DNA from: Acidiferrobacter thiooxydans
GTDB lineage: Bacteria > Pseudomonadota > Gammaproteobacteria > Acidiferrobacterales > Acidiferrobacteraceae
Length of the DNA: 64,000 bases
Assembly (NCBI RefSeq): GCF_003333315.1
Contig: NZ_PSYR01000001.1
Span: 310,001-374,000, forward strand
Direction: 5' to 3'
In this document: positions 7,984 through 61,509 of the stretch, piece by piece
Layout of the letters: each line of letters begins with the position of its first letter
Position numbering within the stretch: the first letter of the stretch is position 1
The notes under the pieces: generated by a model
Told to the model about the DNA's origin: nothing
What the model saw: only the letters and a program-made list of their open reading frames with translations
Database searches by the model: none
Translations under genes and position numbers: made by a program

Positions 7984-8250
7984 GGGGCGAGACGTCCCTC
8001 CGAAATGAAAGTGTGCGCGACAGGACACGATGGGTTCCCTGCCCCAAGCCCCGGTCGGGGCGGCAAACGCGGCCTATCCCCATAACGGCCTGCCTGGGGG
8101 TCAGTCCATCCGGCCGTGGCGGCGGCTTTGGGAGGGTTCCTGTGGGCGTCAGGACCGCGATGCCGGTCTGCTCGCAATGGGTCTATTCTAAGATACCCGG
8201 GGCTAGACAAGCCTCGGGCGGTTAGCCTTTGATAGCTAAGCGACCTGCGT

Positions 8251-9120
8251 CTAGGCGGGCTCCGGCGAGAGCAGTACGCCCTTCATGGTGTCGAGGGCCT
8301 TTTTCTCGATCTGACGGATGCGCTCCGCAGAGACCCCGTATTCCTCCGCCAGTTCGTGCAGGGTCGGTTTGTCAGCCGCCAGCCAACGCCTGCGGATGAT
8401 GTCCTGGCTGCGGCCATCCAGCGATACCAAGGCGTTTTGCAACCGATCCTGCTGCGAACTCTCGGCATCGGCGTGGGCGAGCAGGCTCTCGGGATTGTAG
8501 CGCATGTCCTGCAGGAAGCCCGCCGGCGATGACCGGAACTCCTCGTCGTCGCCATCGTCCTGGGCATCGAACGGCACATCCGCGTTTGCCATGCGCGACT
8601 CCATCTCCTTTACGGTCTCGGTCGGCACGTCGAGGTCGGCGGCGAGATTCGAGATCTCGCTCTCGTTCATCCAGCCGATCCGGGCGCGCGATTGCCGGAG
8701 ATTGAAGAATAGCTTGCGCTGGGCCTTGGTGGTGGCGATCTTTACGATCCGCCAGTTGCGCAGGATGTAGTCGTAGATCTCGGCGCGGATCCAATGCACC
8801 GCGAACGATACCAGGCGTACGCCGTGCGCCGGGTCGAAGTGCTTGACGGCCTTCATAAGGCCGATATTACCCTCCTGGATGAGGTCGGCCTGCGGTAGGC
8901 CGTAGCCCGCGAAGGCCCGCGCCACGCGCACGACGTAACGGAGCTGGGAGAGTACGAGCTGCCTCGCGGCTTCGAGGTTGTTGTGCTCCCGGTACTCGAT
9001 CGCCAGCTGCCGCTCCTGTTCGGCGTCTAGTACCGGCGCCGCGTTGGCAAGCCGCAGGTAGTGCGAGAGCCCGCCCTCGGCGCTCACATTGACGGCGACT
9101 GGCAAGGTGTGCATGGTCAT
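8251..9120 (-). CDS. rpoH: RNA polymerase heat-shock sigma factor RpoH (sigma-32)
   Basis: A 289-residue group 3 sigma-70-family factor directing polymerase to heat-shock promoters. Region 2 runs about 50-125, with the G-N-I-G-L-M-K-A-V-K-H-F-D core of region 2.2. The RpoH box Q-R-K-L-F-F-N-L-R is at 134-142 and is diagnostic for sigma-32. The region 4.2 helix-turn-helix is at about 254-280. It follows ftsX, as in most gammaproteobacteria, but with a 114-base spacer carrying a CIRCE operator. Close matches to RpoH promoters stand before lon and hsp20 in this window. Confidence 0.97.
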   Translation of the reverse strand: MTMHTLPVAVNVSAEGGLSHYLRLANAAPVLDAEQERQLAIEYREHNNLEAARQLVLSQLRYVVRVARAFAGYGLPQADLIQEGNIGLMKAVKHFDPAHGVRLVSFAVHWIRAEIYDYILRNWRIVKIATTKAQRKLFFNLRQSRARIGWMNESEISNLAADLDVPTETVKEMESRMANADVPFDAQDDGDDEEFRSSPAGFLQDMRYNPESLLAHADAESSQQDRLQNALVSLDGRSQDIIRRRWLAADKPTLHELAEEYGVSAERIRQIEKKALDTMKGVLLSPEPA

Positions 9121-9168
9121 GTCCTACCCCCTTCGACTGTCCGTATCGACCGTAAAGTACACTGCATT

Positions 9169-9195
9169 TTAGCATTCTCGCCCTGAGAGTGCTAA
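9169..9195 (-). promoter_or_regulatory. CIRCE operator (HrcA site) upstream of rpoH
   Basis: TTAGCATTC-N9-GAGTGCTAA on the plus strand, or TTAGCACTC-N9-GAATGCTAA reading toward rpoH. It differs from the CIRCE consensus at one of 18 positions and has the exact 9-base spacer. A TAAAAT hexamer overlaps its rpoH-proximal edge and could be the -10 box. The site lies 49-75 bases before the rpoH start, so HrcA binding would block rpoH transcription. hrcA itself is not in the window. Confidence 0.85.
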
Positions 9196-9234
9196 TTTCC
9201 CGGAATAGTTCCCCGGGGTCGCGCCCGGCTCCGG

Positions 9235-10134
9235 CTAGATCCGGTGGGAGCGCAACGCCTGCCCCACCGCGATCCGGGCCCCCAGCCATCCGAGCAGGGC
9301 CCCCACCCCCAGAAGCCCCAGGGCCTGCCCCAGGTCCGGCCCCATCAGCTGGTAATGGGCCCCGTAGGCGCGATCGAGCGCCGCCACCGGCCCGTCCAGG
9401 GCCAGGAAGGCCGTTTCCAGGAGGATGAGCGCGCACAGCGCCCCGAGCCCCCCGGTTAATGCCCCGGCATATAAGAAGGGACGCCGGATGAAGGCATTGG
9501 TTCCCCCAACGAGGCTGACCACGGCGATCTCGTCTGCGCGGCTTGCCACCGCCGCGCGCGTGGTATTGCCGATGATAAGGATGAGCGCAAGCCCCAGTGC
9601 GACGGCCAGGATCACGACCAGCCGGTGGCCGAGGGCGAGTGCGGCATCGAGGCGTTCGACCCACGCGAGGTTGGATTGCACGTGGGCGACGCCGGGCACG
9701 ACCTTGAGCTGCGCGGCCAGGCGCGCCACGCTGGCGGGCGTGTCCCCGGCAGGCGTGACCACGGCCACGCCCGGCAGCGGGTTGTGGTGCCGGAAGGCCA
9801 CTGCGGTAGTGCCCAGACCGGAGGCGGCCGAGAATTCGCGCAGACCCTCGGCCGGCGAGATGTAGCGCACAGCGGCGATCCCCGGGATCCGGCGGATGGC
9901 GGCGATGGTGGCGGTATTGGATACGCCCTTCGTCAGGTAGACCGAGAGCGACCCGCGCGGCTGCAAGCCTGCGGTCAGGCGTTGCAGATTGAGGAGTCCG
10001 ACATAGAGACCGGTCGGCAACACCAGGGTCACGCCGATCATGACGACGGTCAGAAACGTAGCCGCCGGACTGCGCGCGAAGTCCCCGAGCGTCCTCATGA
10101 AGACTTGCATATGACGGGTCAGGTAGGCCTTCAT
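9235..10134 (-). CDS. ftsX: Cell-division ABC transporter permease FtsX
   Basis: About 299 residues: one transmembrane helix at about 25-50, a periplasmic domain to about 170 containing the conserved S-P-A-E-G-L-R-E-F motif, then three C-terminal helices. FtsX partners FtsE and activates septal peptidoglycan hydrolases through amidase regulators such as EnvC. The start at 10134 follows AAGGA five bases upstream; an in-frame ATG 33 bases earlier lacks a ribosome site. It has a shorter cytoplasmic N-terminus than E. coli FtsX. Unusually, it does not overlap ftsE but is separated from it by 364 bases. Confidence 0.93.
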   Translation of the reverse strand: MKAYLTRHMQVFMRTLGDFARSPAATFLTVVMIGVTLVLPTGLYVGLLNLQRLTAGLQPRGSLSVYLTKGVSNTATIAAIRRIPGIAAVRYISPAEGLREFSAASGLGTTAVAFRHHNPLPGVAVVTPAGDTPASVARLAAQLKVVPGVAHVQSNLAWVERLDAALALGHRLVVILAVALGLALILIIGNTTRAAVASRADEIAVVSLVGGTNAFIRRPFLYAGALTGGLGALCALILLETAFLALDGPVAALDRAYGAHYQLMGPDLGQALGLLGVGALLGWLGARIAVGQALRSHRI

Positions 10135-10498
10135 GGCGATCCTTCTTACGTAACCCGCGATGGCCATCGCGAGTGGGCTGTCAAGAGCGGCAGGTGGCGT
10201 GCACGGCAGGTGCTGTTGCCCGTCTCCCGCTCGCCCCTTTCATACACGTTCGCGTACCGGGCGGCAAGCCGCGGTATCCGCTAACCGTGTGGCCGGCCCC
10301 GGGGGCGGCCACCGCCGGCTTTCGTATGGAGTCGTGGGTGGCCAGGCGGGCTCGCCCGGCGCACGCCGCCGTGATCGTGACCGCGCACCGAACGGGATCA
10401 TGACCCATCCGGCCACGGCCGTCAGCCGCGCCTTGCCGCTGCCAGACTACGGGTGGGCCGTCAGCCGCGATTGTCCTTGGCGAGCCTGGGCGGGCGAT
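10135..10498. other. ftsE-ftsX spacer with 14-bp direct repeat
   Basis: 364 bases between two genes that normally overlap. No credible coding frame was found. GGCCGTCAGCCGCG occurs twice in the same orientation, at 10417-10430 and 10456-10469. GC-rich potential stems lie around 10290-10315. The origin of the insertion is unclear. Confidence 0.5.
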
Positions 10499-47982: not shown

Positions 47983-48534
47983 TCATGGTCCGAAGCCTGG
48001 CCCGTCATCGTCCCCCGGCCACCCCCAGTCGAAGTCTGGCCCCACGCCTATGCCCCACCCCCACGGCCAGGGGTTGGCGTAGTAAAAACGCGAGTAGTAA
48101 TGGGGCCGTGGTCGCCAGAGGTGGACCGCGAGCGTACGCACCACGGGGAAGTCATACAGATAGCTCCCGATCGGGTCCTTCTCGTAGCCGGAGAAGACCC
48201 CCACCACGGTGATCTTGCGACCGACCGCGTAGATATCGGGGTCGAGAAAGCCCGGCACCCGGGCCAGGAAGCGCCCTCCGCTGAACCGCGCCCGGCGTGG
48301 ACGGCCGTCGTGCCGTAACGATCGGCTGATGACCTGTATCCAGGTGGCGTGGGGATCATTTATGACCTTGCTGATGACCCCGCCCCAACGTACGCGTGCC
48401 CCGAGGGGTGCGATGTGGGCGCGCGCCGCGGCCACGGTCACCGATGTGATATGCGGTGCCCGTAGGGCGCGCGGGATGGGTGCGGCGCACCCGGTCAGAA
48501 GAAGTATGCCTGCTAGCGTCCACAAGGCTTTCAT
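47983..48534 (-). CDS. Slp-family outer-membrane lipoprotein 2
   Basis: 183 residues with lipobox L-L-T-G-C at 12-16. Shares V-R-W-G-G-V-I, G-R-F-L-A-R-V-P-G-F-L-D-P and K-I-T-V-V-G-V with its neighbour. The tail is Tyr/Trp/Gly/Asp-rich. GGAGG precedes the start. First of the two slp genes, divergent from lon. Confidence 0.9.
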   Translation of the reverse strand: MKALWTLAGILLLTGCAAPIPRALRAPHITSVTVAAARAHIAPLGARVRWGGVISKVINDPHATWIQVISRSLRHDGRPRRARFSGGRFLARVPGFLDPDIYAVGRKITVVGVFSGYEKDPIGSYLYDFPVVRTLAVHLWRPRPHYYSRFYYANPWPWGWGIGVGPDFDWGWPGDDDGPGFGP

Positions 48535-48565
48535 TGCGCGGCCTCCATGTCCGGACGGCTCTTGC

Positions 48566-48708
48566 CTTGATGTTTATCATAAGCCGCCCATGTGACCTTG
48601 ACCAGAGACTGAGATCCTCATCGGCCGTGCGACTATGGCCGCGTTCCGGTGCGGGCGCGATCTGGCACAATACGCAAACCCTTGAACCGAGTCCGGGCGG
48701 CCCCATTA
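48566..48708 (+). promoter_or_regulatory. RpoH-type heat-shock promoters of lon
   Basis: CTTGAAC (48681-48687), a 13-base spacer and CCCCATTA (48701-48708) closely match the sigma-32 consensus (CTTGAAA-N13-CCCCATnT) and end 38 bases before lon. A second, weaker copy lies upstream: CTTGATG (48566-48572), 13 bases, GCCCATGT (48586-48593). Confidence 0.8.
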
Positions 48709-48746
48709 CAAAGCCGAGCTCCTTAAAAAAAGCGAATGACAGATTG

Positions 48747-51125
48747 ATGACCAAGAGCGAACCCGAATCGATGCCCGCATCCGGCGGGACATTGGCGCGT
48801 GCCGGCGACGTCCTGCCGACCTCCCTGCCGATCGTGCCCATTACGAACCGGCCGTTTTTCCCGGCCCAGGCCATCCCGCTGGTCCTCGATCGCGAGCCGT
48901 GGAGTTCCACGATCGTGGCGGCAACCGAGACCGCGCACAAGGTTGTGGGCCTGGTCTTGATCCGCAAGGACGAGGCGGTCGATGTCGCGAGCGGCGATTT
49001 TTATGAGATGGGGACTGTGTGCCGCATCCATAAGGTGGTTCAGAACGAGGAGAAACTGCAGGTCTTCGTGGAGGGCCTGCAGCGGTTTCGCATTGACCAG
49101 TGGCTGTCCCGTGAGCGGCCGTTCGCAGTGCGCGCGCGGTACTTTCCCGAGCCCGAGGCCCCGGAGAGCGGCGATGCCAAGGCCTATTCGGTGGCGGTCA
49201 TCAATACCATAAAGGAGCTTTTGCCACTAAACCCCCTGTATGGCGAGGAACTCAAGTTCTTTCTGACGCGCTTTGGTCCGGATCAACCCTCGCGCCTTGC
49301 GGACTTCGCGGCCAGTCTCACCACCGCGAGTAAGATGGAATTGCAGGATGTCCTGCGCACCGTCGACCTCGAGCCGCGTCTCGAGAAGGTGCTCTTTCTC
49401 CTGAAAAAGGAGCTCGAGCTCGCCAAGACCCAGGCGCGCATCAGCGAGCGGGTCGAGGAGAAGATCAACGAACAGCAGCGCCAGTTCTTCCTGCGCGAAC
49501 AGCTGAAGGCCATCCAGAAGGAACTGGGCATCGCCAAGGACGACCGTACCGCCGAGATCGAGGTCTTTCGCGAGCGGCTCACCACGCTCACCCTGCCGGA
49601 GGCCGCGCAAAAGCGCGTCGAGGAAGAGCTGCAAAAGATGGCGGTGCTCGAGATGGGGTCTCCTGAATATGCGGTCACGCGCAATTATCTCGAGTGGTTG
49701 ACGGTTCTACCCTGGGGCCGCTATTCCACCGACAAGATCGATCTGAAGCAGGCGCGGACGATCCTGGACCGTGACCATGACGGCCTCGATGACGTCAAGG
49801 ACCGCATCATCGAATTCCTGGCGGTCGGCGTCATGAAGGGTGAGGTGGCGGGCTCGATACTCCTGCTCGTAGGCCCCCCGGGGGTGGGTAAGACATCCAT
49901 AGGTCGCTCCATAGCGGCCTCTCTGGGTCGTACCTTCTATCGGTTTTCCGTAGGCGGCATGCGCGATGAGGCCGAGATCAAGGGCCATCGCCGCACCTAC
50001 ATAGGGGCGATGCCCGGCAAGTTCATTCAGGCGATCCGTGAGGTCGGGGTGGCCAATCCGATCATCATGTTAGACGAGATCGACAAGATCGGCTCCTCTT
50101 TTCAGGGGAATCCGGCCTCGGCGCTGCTCGAGGTTCTGGACCCCGAGCAGAACGTCGATTTTCTGGATCATTATCTCGACTTACGTTTCGATCTGTCCAA
50201 AGTGCTATTTATCTGTACGGCCAACCAGCTCGATACCATACCCCGGCCATTGCTGGATCGCATGGAGGTCATACGGCTTGCCGGTTACATCACGAGCGAG
50301 AAGATGGCGATCGCCAAGCATCATCTCCTGCCCAAGCAGATGGAGAAGGTGGGATTGAAGCGCGGGCAGTTGCGTATCGAGGATCAGGCCATACGCGAGA
50401 TCATCGAGGGTTATGCGCGCGAGGCCGGCGTCCGCAACCTCGAAAAGAAGCTCGGCTCGATCGCGCGCAAGGCCGTGGTGGCCATGATCAACGGCAAGGA
50501 GCCGCCCATCAAGGTGGGTACGCGCAATCTGGAGAAGTATCTCGATCGACCGGTCTTTCAGCCCATCAAGCCCCTGCGTGGTGTCGGGGTCGTGACCGGC
50601 CTTGCCTGGACCCCCATGGGCGGCGCCATCCTCGATATCGAGGTCACGCGTGTGCACCGCGCCACGCGCGGGATCAAGATCACGGGCCAATTGGGTGAGG
50701 TGATGCGCGAGTCGGCGGAGATCGCCTACAGCTATATCTCCTCACATTGCAAGCAATACGGCGCCCCTGAGGATTTCTTCGACAAGGCGTCTTTGCATCT
50801 GCACGTGCCGGCGGGCGCGATTCCTAAGGACGGGCCGAGCGCCGGGGTGACGATCGCGAGCGCGCTCCTGTCGCTTGCGCGCGGCAAGCGCATCAGCCGG
50901 CCGCTGGCCATGACCGGCGAGATCACGCTCACCGGTTATGTCCTTCCGGTCGGCGGGATCCGCGAGAAGATTATCGCCGCGCGCCGCGTCAAGATCCCCG
51001 AGATCATCATCCCCGAGGCCAATCGCAACGACTTCGAGGAGTTGCCCGACAATGTCCGTAGCGGCCTTGTCATGCATTATGTCAAGCATTACCGCGAGGT
51101 CGCGGCCTTGATCTTTCCGGGCTAG
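48747..51125 (+). CDS. lon: ATP-dependent protease Lon
   Basis: 792 residues. N-terminal substrate-binding domain (about 25-220), helical middle with the Q-Q-R-Q-F-F-L-R-E-Q-L-K-A-I-Q motif, AAA+ module with Walker A G-P-P-G-V-G-K-T (about 376-383) and Walker B I-I-M-L-D-E-I-D-K, and a protease domain with the Ser698 (P-K-D-G-P-S-A-G) and Lys741 (R-E-K-I) dyad. It degrades misfolded and regulatory proteins. The ATG at 48747 has a weak ribosome site. Preceded by RpoH-type promoters. Confidence 0.97.
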   Translation: MTKSEPESMPASGGTLARAGDVLPTSLPIVPITNRPFFPAQAIPLVLDREPWSSTIVAATETAHKVVGLVLIRKDEAVDVASGDFYEMGTVCRIHKVVQNEEKLQVFVEGLQRFRIDQWLSRERPFAVRARYFPEPEAPESGDAKAYSVAVINTIKELLPLNPLYGEELKFFLTRFGPDQPSRLADFAASLTTASKMELQDVLRTVDLEPRLEKVLFLLKKELELAKTQARISERVEEKINEQQRQFFLREQLKAIQKELGIAKDDRTAEIEVFRERLTTLTLPEAAQKRVEEELQKMAVLEMGSPEYAVTRNYLEWLTVLPWGRYSTDKIDLKQARTILDRDHDGLDDVKDRIIEFLAVGVMKGEVAGSILLLVGPPGVGKTSIGRSIAASLGRTFYRFSVGGMRDEAEIKGHRRTYIGAMPGKFIQAIREVGVANPIIMLDEIDKIGSSFQGNPASALLEVLDPEQNVDFLDHYLDLRFDLSKVLFICTANQLDTIPRPLLDRMEVIRLAGYITSEKMAIAKHHLLPKQMEKVGLKRGQLRIEDQAIREIIEGYAREAGVRNLEKKLGSIARKAVVAMINGKEPPIKVGTRNLEKYLDRPVFQPIKPLRGVGVVTGLAWTPMGGAILDIEVTRVHRATRGIKITGQLGEVMRESAEIAYSYISSHCKQYGAPEDFFDKASLHLHVPAGAIPKDGPSAGVTIASALLSLARGKRISRPLAMTGEITLTGYVLPVGGIREKIIAARRVKIPEIIIPEANRNDFEELPDNVRSGLVMHYVKHYREVAALIFPG

Positions 51126-59139: not shown

Positions 59140-61509
59140 TTAGGTGGCGCTGGCCTCGGCGGTGCGCGATGTCGGGGAGCGCAATAACGGCACCTTTATG
59201 AGGTCGAGCAGCGTCACAAAGAGGATCGTGAACGCGAGCAGCAGGCCGATCGCCGACCATGTCACGGGCGCCATCATGCCAAACAGCCCGAAGTGCGCGA
59301 GCAGCGAGACCAGGATGACGTCGCCCACGATCGCGAGCAGCAGATAGGTGCCCGGGCGCGAGGACCACATATAGGAGCGCTCGCGCACCAGAAGCACGTT
59401 GGACAGGCCCGAATACACGAGACCCAGGAAGCTTAGGGTGCGCAGTTCGGCAATCGGCAGTCCCAGCACGTCTTTGCCCACGCCAAACACCGCGAAGATG
59501 TAGACGAGCCATGCGACGGCGATGATGAGCGAGGTTTTGATGAGCACGCGCACGTTCCAGATGTCCGGTTCGCGCGACACGCGCACGTTGTCGTTGGCAA
59601 TCGACATGGTCACGAAGTCATTAGCGAACAGCAGCAACAGCACGAGCAGCGGCGTTACCACGAAGTGCCGAAATATGATTAGCCCAAGGCTCAGGAACAC
59701 CGCCACCTGTATGGTCTTCACGATCTTGTTCAGTGTGTAGGTTAAAAGCCGCTGATAGACCCGCCGCCCGGTCTTGACCGCCTCCACCACCCCCTTCAGG
59801 CCAGATTCGGTCAGCACCATGCTGGCCGCCGCCTTGGCGACGTCGGTGGCGCTCGACACCGCGATCCCGACCTCCGCCTGTTTCAAGGCCGGCGCGTCGT
59901 TTACCCCGTCGCCGGTCATCCCGACTGTGTGTCCGATATTCTGGAAGGTCTGCACCAGGCGGAACTTGTCCTCCGGATAGACGCCGGCGTAGATGTCACA
60001 GATGGCGCCCTTGGCGATCTCGTCGCGGCCGCCGATCACAACCCCCTCCATGCCGAGCTCCGCGGCCACGACCCGCGCGGTGGCCATGCTGTCGCCGGTC
60101 ACCATACGCACCCTCACGCCCAACTGACGGAGATCGGCTATGATCCCGCGGGCCTCGGGGCGTGGCGGGTCGGCGAGCGCGATCAGCCCCTTGAACGTAA
60201 GGGCCCCGTCACGGCCAGCCGCGACCCCAAGGACGCGGGCCCCGCTCGCGGCGAGATCGGCGATCGCGGTCTCCCAGAACTCACCGTCGGCGCCGGCGAG
60301 CTTGGCCACGACATGCGGCGCACCCTTGACCGCGCGCCATGTCTCGCCGTCGCGCGTGAAGGTCGCCTCGGAGCGCTTGGTGGCCGGGTCGAAGGGTATG
60401 AAGCCGGTCTTTTCGGGGGCACGCACACCGGTCTCCGCGAGCCGCGCCAGGATCGCCTTGTCCAGGGGGTCCTGGGTGCGTTCGTCGCTCGCGAGCGCGC
60501 CCATGAGCAGAAGGTCGGCGTCGTCCACGCCGTCGGCCGTCTGCATGCCCGAGAGCGTGAGCTCGTTCAGGGTCAGGGTCCCGGTCTTGTCGCTGCAAAG
60601 CTCGTTCATGGCCGCCGATTCCTCGATGGCCGCAAGCCGCGTGAGCAGCACACCCTTGCTGGACAGATCGAGTGAGGCCACGGCGCTTGTGAGCGTGAAG
60701 GTCGCGGTGAGTGCGACCGGCACCGAGGCGACGAGCAAGATGAGCGCAAACGGCATCACCTTCATGAACGAGAGACCGGTGATAGCCGCGTAGATGAGGA
60801 TCGCGATCACCAACGCGCCGTCCATCAGCAGCAGATAACGGACGATGGACATGACCAACTCCTCGGCATGGCTGCGGCTGCCGGCGCCGCGCATCAGCTC
60901 CGCGGTCTTGCCAAAGAAGCTCTTGCTGCCGGTCGCCGTCACGCTGCCGCTCGCCTCCCCGCGACGCAGCACCGACCCCGAATATACGACCTCCCCCGGC
61001 TCGCGCTCCACCGGCACCGACTCCCCGGTGAGCGCCGATTGATCGACCAGCACCTGCCCCTCGGCGATCACAAGATCCGCCGGCGCGAAGTCGCCGACGC
61101 GCAGATGCACGTAGTCGCCGGGCACAAGCTCTGAGGAGGCGACCTGCTTCCACGCGCCGTCGCGCAGCACGCGCGCCATGATCTGCAGGCGCGTCCTTAG
61201 CATATTGAGGGCGTTCTGGGCCTTTTGCTGATGCATGAAACCGAGGATGGCGTTGAATATCAGCAGAAAGCCGATGATGAGGCCTTCGATGTTGTTGCCC
61301 ATGATGATCTCTAGGACCAACGTGGCCTCGAGCATCCACGGCACTGGCCCCCATAGCTTTTTGAAAAACAGCCGGAACGGATTGGGTTTGTCCTCGGCGA
61401 TGACATTCGGCCCGTACTCGGCCAATAACCGTGTCACCTCTTCGCTGGTCAGGCCCTTGGGGTTTACTACATGCTCCTTCTTACGCTCACTCGCTGCCTC
61501 GCCCATCAT
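59140..61509 (-). CDS. P-type ATPase, plasma-membrane H+-ATPase (P3A) type
   Basis: 789 residues. N-terminal G-P-V-P-W-M-L-E-A is typical of P3A pumps; T-G-E-S is at 161-164, S-V-P-V-A-L in helix 4 near 262-267, phosphorylation Asp307 in D-K-T-G-T, and T-G-D-G-V-N-D-A-P in the hinge. The helix 6 Asp in F-A-N-D-F matches the essential proton Asp of plant and fungal pumps. No metal-binding domain is present. It would extrude protons or another cation at ATP cost; acid resistance is a plausible role. The adjacent ATG at 61506 has better spacing to GAGGAGG. Transcribed after the CBS gene. Confidence 0.9.
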   Translation of the reverse strand: MMGEAASERKKEHVVNPKGLTSEEVTRLLAEYGPNVIAEDKPNPFRLFFKKLWGPVPWMLEATLVLEIIMGNNIEGLIIGFLLIFNAILGFMHQQKAQNALNMLRTRLQIMARVLRDGAWKQVASSELVPGDYVHLRVGDFAPADLVIAEGQVLVDQSALTGESVPVEREPGEVVYSGSVLRRGEASGSVTATGSKSFFGKTAELMRGAGSRSHAEELVMSIVRYLLLMDGALVIAILIYAAITGLSFMKVMPFALILLVASVPVALTATFTLTSAVASLDLSSKGVLLTRLAAIEESAAMNELCSDKTGTLTLNELTLSGMQTADGVDDADLLLMGALASDERTQDPLDKAILARLAETGVRAPEKTGFIPFDPATKRSEATFTRDGETWRAVKGAPHVVAKLAGADGEFWETAIADLAASGARVLGVAAGRDGALTFKGLIALADPPRPEARGIIADLRQLGVRVRMVTGDSMATARVVAAELGMEGVVIGGRDEIAKGAICDIYAGVYPEDKFRLVQTFQNIGHTVGMTGDGVNDAPALKQAEVGIAVSSATDVAKAAASMVLTESGLKGVVEAVKTGRRVYQRLLTYTLNKIVKTIQVAVFLSLGLIIFRHFVVTPLLVLLLLFANDFVTMSIANDNVRVSREPDIWNVRVLIKTSLIIAVAWLVYIFAVFGVGKDVLGLPIAELRTLSFLGLVYSGLSNVLLVRERSYMWSSRPGTYLLLAIVGDVILVSLLAHFGLFGMMAPVTWSAIGLLLAFTILFVTLLDLIKVPLLRSPTSRTAEASAT

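Follow-up and report, generated by a model that had tools for sequence, protein, structure and literature searches.

In the usual picture of the bacterial heat-shock response, negative control of chaperone genes by HrcA is separate from positive control by sigma-32, and sigma-32 itself is set post-transcriptionally. The window analysed here, a stretch of 64 kb from the genome of Acidiferrobacter thiooxydans, carries a sequence resembling CIRCE, the HrcA operator, in front of rpoH, the gene for sigma-32. This raises the question of whether the sequence is a working operator, and on which promoters of rpoH it would act.

The CIRCE site at rpoH

The gene order at the locus is ftsE-ftsX-rpoH. The features found there are:

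8251–9120, minus strand: rpoH, sigma-32 (NCBIfam TIGR02392, E-value = 2.6e-112, 374.9 bits, cut-off 323.1)
9127–9131, minus strand: GGGGG before the rpoH ATG, a possible ribosome-binding site judging by its sequence
9169–9195, minus strand: CIRCE, predicted HrcA operator (17/18 arm bases, exact N9 spacing)
9235–10167, minus strand: ftsX, the upstream gene (NCBIfam TIGR00439, over cut-off)

The forward strand at 9169–9195 reads TTAGCATTC-N9-GAGTGCTAA, with one mismatch to CIRCE, and the minus strand, read toward rpoH, is TTAGCACTC-N9-GAATGCTAA. The inverted repeat that marks the HrcA/CIRCE regulon, TTAGCACTC-N9-GAGTGCTAA, is present at rpoH in 17 of its 18 bases. When the 64 kb are scanned with up to 3 mismatches allowed, this is the sole match, and shuffled sequence gives a mean of 0.02. 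A chance palindrome is ruled out by that mean and by shuffled rpoH regions of the class described below, none of which (0/3000) reaches CIRCE. Since rpoH lies on the minus strand at 8251–9120, with its ATG at 9120, CIRCE ends 48 bases ahead of the ATG. A preliminary description of this DNA had reported the same site with the same arm matches and exact spacing, all of which is borne out, and had placed it 49 bases from rpoH, one more than the actual count. The single mismatch is GAATGC for GAGTGC in the right arm. It is common to the window and its nearest relatives (L008–L019, L026, L062) and is thus clade-wide, not random. An operator belonging to ftsX was considered and ruled out; ftsX is co-directional with rpoH and ends upstream of CIRCE.

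The genome, which is 3.25 Mb in size and 99.93 percent complete, encodes hrcA (PF01628, E-value = 2.5e-65; TIGR00331, 323.8 bits, over cut-off), followed by grpE, and also rpoE (TIGR02939, 319 bits, over cut-off). The relaxed CIRCE pattern, with up to 3 mismatches, finds three sites in the genome, each with 0 or 1 mismatch, and the reversed control pattern gives one match. The three sites precede rpoH, groES (L002) and hrcA-grpE (L003). The operator at rpoH is like those at groESL and hrcA-grpE in having the same operator sequence and the same repressor, both within this genome. A search for hrcA and for all CIRCE copies had been proposed beforehand as a check on HrcA control, and both the repressor gene and a small set of operators at heat-shock genes are there. 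Elsewhere in the window, positions 59140–61509 encode a plasma-membrane proton-efflux P-type ATPase (TIGR01647, 668.5 bits, over cut-off).

Conservation of the operator with hrcA

CIRCE with at most 2 mismatches is found upstream of rpoH in 80/80 relatives, these being the best 80 of 129 named genomes with RpoH. Their titles are those of metagenome bins, assigned to Acidiferrobacteraceae, to other Gammaproteobacteria or only to Proteobacteria, with one Nitrospira. In a shuffle control with 50 shuffles per locus, the best match never falls below 4 mismatches. This conservation, which the preliminary description had suggested examining, extends well beyond the relatives, as follows.

A class sample consists of 276 genomes, of which 261 give an rpoH match at an E-value up to 1e-60. 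Among the 276, CIRCE with at most 1 mismatch is found in 203 and hrcA in 205. A first class set was formed from the 150 best-scoring rpoH genomes of the 261, with 330 bases upstream of rpoH taken from each. CIRCE (up to 3 mismatches) is present at rpoH in 120/127 genomes of this set with hrcA, as opposed to 5/23 without (Fisher p = 1.6e-13); with one genome per family the figures are 58/61 and 3/10. Shuffled rpoH regions reach 3 mismatches in 0/3000 cases. Because the first set is the best-scoring part of the sample, a second was drawn from the remainder, consisting of 30 of the 78 other hrcA-bearing genomes taken at even steps. Of these, 25 have an rpoH match, and 23/25 display CIRCE at rpoH. 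In a third set, from a phylum sample in which 80 genomes of the same class were tested, hrcA is found in 23, all of them with CIRCE at rpoH (23/23), while seven chosen genomes without hrcA show none (0/7).

Pooled over the three class sets, CIRCE lies at rpoH in 166/175 genomes with hrcA versus 5/30 without. The exceptions are 9/175 hrcA-bearing genomes that have no CIRCE at rpoH and the five hrcA-less genomes that keep a CIRCE-like site. One genome, G159, has two rpoH copies, one with CIRCE at 3 mismatches and the other with none; it is counted once as having CIRCE. Another, G081, displays a one-mismatch CIRCE yet gives no hrcA match, which may reflect an assembly gap or a true exception. Since hrcA is missing from many species of the class, the arrangement does not hold for the class as a whole. 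From the sequences compared, CIRCE at rpoH is the norm among the hrcA-bearing members examined and not a quirk of the A. thiooxydans genome.

Candidate promoters interlocked with the operator

Two candidate promoters overlap CIRCE in the window. Their elements are:

9206–9212, minus strand: sigma-E-type −35, GGAACTA (6/7 to GGAACTT; a conserved block in the profile of the 80 relatives)
9184–9188, minus strand: sigma-E-type −10, TCTCA (17 bases from the −35; linked conservation of its A)
9190–9195, minus strand: sigma-70-type −35, TTAGCA, in the CIRCE left arm (4/6 to TTGACA)
9166–9171, minus strand: sigma-70-type −10, TAAAAT, formed from the CIRCE right arm and the AAT after it (TG one base upstream)

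Of TCTCA at 9184–9188, the first two bases end the left arm of CIRCE and the other three open its spacer. GGAACTA-N17-TCTCA scores 9/10 as a sigma-E promoter, a score of 9 being reached by 2.5 percent of shuffled regions; it has one mismatch in its −35 and a spacer of 17, the commoner value being 16. The right arm of CIRCE continues into TGCTAAAAT, which forms an extended sigma-70 −10, and TTAGCA or TTGGCA of the left arm forms a sigma-70-type −35 at 18 bases. In a consensus scan of 9000–9700, TTAGCA-N18-TAAAAT is the sole sigma-70-like site; shuffles give 0.1. A possible −10 overlapping CIRCE had been mentioned in the preliminary description and is supported by this consensus, with TG before TAAAAT and TTAGCA at N18. 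The main point, that CIRCE is interlocked with promoters, one of them of the sigma-E type, had been missed.

When the 80 relatives are aligned on CIRCE, GGAACTT stands about 9 bases upstream of it and AAT follows the right arm. Within the spacer, T occupies position 1 in 67 relatives and A occupies position 3 in 64. The third base of the TTAGCA position is G (the TTGGCA type) in 39/80, and NAT directly follows CIRCE in 73/80 relatives as well as in 92/125 regions of the first class set. A TCnnA follows GGAACTT after 16 or 17 bases; its TC closes the left arm of CIRCE, and its A falls on spacer base 3. In the first class set a GAAC-type −35 lies 8–10 bases from CIRCE in 96/125 regions (47/61 with one genome per family). 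As this set holds the best-scoring rpoH genes, the figure overstates the class as a whole and is corrected by the two later sets, in which this register is rarer (10/23 and 6/23). The −35 and the spacer A of the −10 go together: in the first set the A is present in 95/96 regions where the −35 lies at 8–10 bases, as against 12/29 others (p = 2e-12), and among the named relatives in 59/66 as against 5/14 (p = 6e-5).

A register-free test asks for GAAC in a −35 with at least 5/7 matches, 15–17 bases, a full TCnnA, and the −35 within 45 bases of CIRCE. By this test a sigma-E-type promoter overlaps or abuts CIRCE in 132/171 CIRCE-bearing rpoH regions and 39/171 are without one; shuffles that keep the CIRCE arms pass in 0.4–0.6 percent. 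By set, the counts are 108/125 for the first, 12/23 for the rest of the class and 12/23 for the phylum sample. The fusion is commonest near the A. thiooxydans genome (108/125) and rarer farther away (24/46). As a rule, the −10 of the fused promoter combines the left-arm end with the CIRCE spacer. The −35 is found at 7–10 bases from CIRCE, at 3 or 5, at 22–25, where the −10 lies just before CIRCE, and in one case at 36. In L397, L398, L399 and L370 (genomes G439, G433, G451 and G386), with the −35 at 5 or 3 bases, TCnnA lies wholly inside the N9 spacer, so that operator and promoter overlap as elsewhere but in a different register. The later counts strengthen the link between operator and hrcA, weaken the universality of the sigma-E fusion, and leave the likelihood of the readings discussed below unchanged.

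CIRCE sites at groES and hrcA serve as controls. The 31 distinct control sites (groES 20, hrcA 11) come from the fetched loci, including 20 chosen stretches and the sites of this genome. Removal of duplicates reduced 64 rpoH, 23 groES and 12 hrcA sites to 53, 20 and 11, and one unassigned site was later read as clpB; the value of 47/53 obtained for the deduplicated rpoH set is not used as a frequency, since that set was partly chosen by the GAACT pattern. At the groES and hrcA sites, GAACT in the rpoH register occurs in 0/31 and NAT after CIRCE in 0/31, and A at spacer position 3 occurs in 4/31. The register-free test gives 0/20 at groES and 1/11 at hrcA. The possibility that GGAACTT and AAT are parts of every CIRCE is ruled out by these counts (0/31 in the rpoH register, 1/31 in the looser test). 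The groES sites (L002 1475–1527 and 19 others) are built differently: unlike at rpoH, TATNA abuts CIRCE from upstream, touching its first T in 20/20 by eye, and a TG (TGA in 19/20) stands at constant distance upstream, like a sigma-70 promoter with its −10 ending at CIRCE.

The strict composite, GAACT-N10-12-CIRCE, is present in 79/276 class genomes, once in each, and its reversed-pattern control gives 0. It precedes rpoH in 78/79 (56 among the listed rpoH matches and 22 by tblastn), and the remaining one precedes clpB. The latter belongs to G062 (L349 1055–1096), a genome that lacks CIRCE at rpoH, and the control element may have moved here from one heat-shock gene to another. In the phylum sample the strict composite occurs in 5/299 genomes, 5/114 of the same class with A. 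thiooxydans included, and 0/185 of the others.

HrcA as a probable gate on rpoH transcription

On the best reading of the locus, the site at 9169–9195 probably works as an HrcA operator and at the same time supplies promoter DNA, and HrcA would gate both a sigma-E and a sigma-70 promoter of rpoH. Retention of the site in nearly all of the hrcA-bearing relatives examined points to gating of one heat-shock system by the other. rpoH would be driven by two promoters, GGAACTA-N17-TCTCA of the sigma-E type and TTAGCA-N18-TAAAAT of the sigma-70 type with its extended −10. Since essential bases of both lie inside the operator, bound HrcA would exclude both holoenzymes, blocking basal and sigma-E transcription of rpoH, and the supply of sigma-32 would thereby depend on chaperone shortage and envelope stress.

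HrcA of other bacteria needs the GroE chaperonin to stay active. With the same dependence in A. thiooxydans, free chaperonin would be the signal: HrcA would leave rpoH, groES and hrcA-grpE at the same time once unfolded protein occupied GroE, and under envelope stress sigma-E would drive rpoH as well. Only a shortage of chaperonin would bring rpoH transcription to a high level, and envelope stress on top of it would raise it further. Points against this reading are the one mismatch in the sigma-E −35 of the window and its less common spacer, the 39/171 regions without a fused promoter, the exceptions to the link with hrcA, and a sigma-E-like promoter looked for and not found at the rpoE locus of the genome. 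RpoH would then act on promoters such as that of lon:

48681–48706, plus strand: sigma-32-type promoter CTTGAA-N14-CCCCAT, predicted RpoH target (sole match in the window, 0.01 expected)

The Lon domains begin at residue 124 of the open reading frame 48456–51125, after this promoter. The preliminary description had proposed a cascade from HrcA to RpoH, with RpoH-type promoters at lon and hsp20. With a consensus sigma-32 promoter ahead of the Lon domains, the lon part of that cascade stands; no Hsp20 was found among the window open reading frames tested. Of three outcomes named beforehand as refuting HrcA control of rpoH, two are set aside by the presence of hrcA and by the conserved site, and the proposal is partly supported; it is not specific to this genome, and the sigma-E-type promoter had been overlooked. 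Because that promoter is interlocked with the operator, HrcA would gate a pair of promoters and not simply head an HrcA-to-RpoH cascade.

It is unlikely, though it deserves the most weight among the alternatives, that HrcA represses the sigma-70 promoter only and that transcription starts from the sigma-E promoter wherever HrcA is missing or outcompeted, the two inputs then acting as an OR and not as a gate. Each promoter does have its own −35 and −10, and in E. coli, which gave no HrcA match, RpoE transcribes rpoH (PMC8103513 for RpoE). A sigma-E element with a score of at least 9 is also present in 12/23 genomes of the first class set that have no hrcA. However, in 132/171 regions the operator contains or adjoins the sigma-E −10 or the expected start, in several registers, and simultaneous occupancy would be sterically unlikely.

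Very improbable is a palindrome that is simply a leftover, in which case mRNA structure and protein stability would control rpoH, as they do in E. coli, while the arms would be kept only as promoter elements. Much of each arm does double as promoter sequence, the HrcA operator is predicted from sequence, and five hrcA-less genomes keep CIRCE-like sites; yet the arms are kept in 166/175 genomes with hrcA, also where no sigma-E promoter was found, versus 5/30 without, and, as weak evidence, an Rfam search of 8200–9400 matched 0 families at E up to 1. Least probable is that the GGAACTT block is the site of another regulator beside a plain CIRCE and sigma-70 promoter, since GGAACTT is the RpoE −35 (PMC8103513, in the part covered), the 15–17 bases to TCnnA are kept across several CIRCE registers and the block predicts the spacer A (95/96 versus 12/29), even though the copy in this genome is GGAACTA and no sigma-E-like promoter (at least 6/7 plus TCnnA) is found on the coding strand of its own 3.6-kb rpoE locus, where one could lie farther upstream in an operon.

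The nearest precedents for the arrangement preferred here, an HrcA operator doubling as promoter DNA, include rpoH of E. coli and of Geobacter sulfurreducens. To our knowledge, rpoH promoter P3 of E. coli carries no HrcA operator. P3 is the promoter at which RpoE transcribes rpoH, and GGAACTT is the −35 of RpoE (PMC8103513); A. thiooxydans is like this case in that a sigma-E-type promoter would feed sigma-32. Unlike A. thiooxydans, E. coli does not figure among the controls that gave an HrcA match. Geobacter sulfurreducens belongs to another phylum in current taxonomy. In its genome a CIRCE was predicted in 2004 at −51 of rpoH (PMC545781, Table 8), at a distance near-equal to that seen here; theirs is a perfect match and computed only, and groESL and hrcA-grpE-dnaKJ are likewise listed with CIRCE in the same source. 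Unlike here, a sigma-E element at the G. sulfurreducens rpoH is not mentioned in the part of PMC545781 covered. In titles, abstract starts and the covered parts of PMC545781, PMC8103513, PMC10490939 and PMC3224663, no description was found of CIRCE interlocked with a sigma-E promoter; Permina and Gelfand (2003), which lies outside that scope and deals with beta-, gamma- and epsilon-proteobacteria, may well hold more on the subject. Priority for the simple link of CIRCE with rpoH therefore lies elsewhere, and within the sources covered the fused sigma-E/CIRCE form is the apparent novelty.

Genomes without the repressor bear on the history of the site. In the first class set the sigma-E element, at a score of at least 9, does not track hrcA, being present in 84/127 genomes with the repressor gene and in 12/23 lacking it (p = 0.24), but the operator does. 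Several hrcA-less genomes (G271, G182, G067, G181 and G065) keep GAACTT and TCnnA together with a partly broken CIRCE. In three of them (L288, L297 and L329 of G271, G182 and G067) the CIRCE arms are shifted or broken, and GAACTT, TCnnA and a TAAAAT-like −10 stay. From the sequences, this looks like decay of the operator around a kept promoter. We give about even chances to the view that the ancestral control of rpoH in Gammaproteobacteria was a CIRCE interlocked with a sigma-E promoter. rpoH would then have been an HrcA-gated sigma-E target early on, the overlap would have slid between registers and yet been kept, and the sigma-E promoter of E. coli would be a remnant after loss of HrcA.

If the interlocked operator is functional, HrcA and sigma-32 control are joined in hrcA-bearing Gammaproteobacteria, and in most of the cases examined sigma-E is added as well. 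The rpoH upstream region would then pack a gate with three inputs into about 45 base pairs, and E. coli would be a derived exception. The region would also show, in nature, how an operator and a promoter evolve inside one another and separate upon loss of the repressor.
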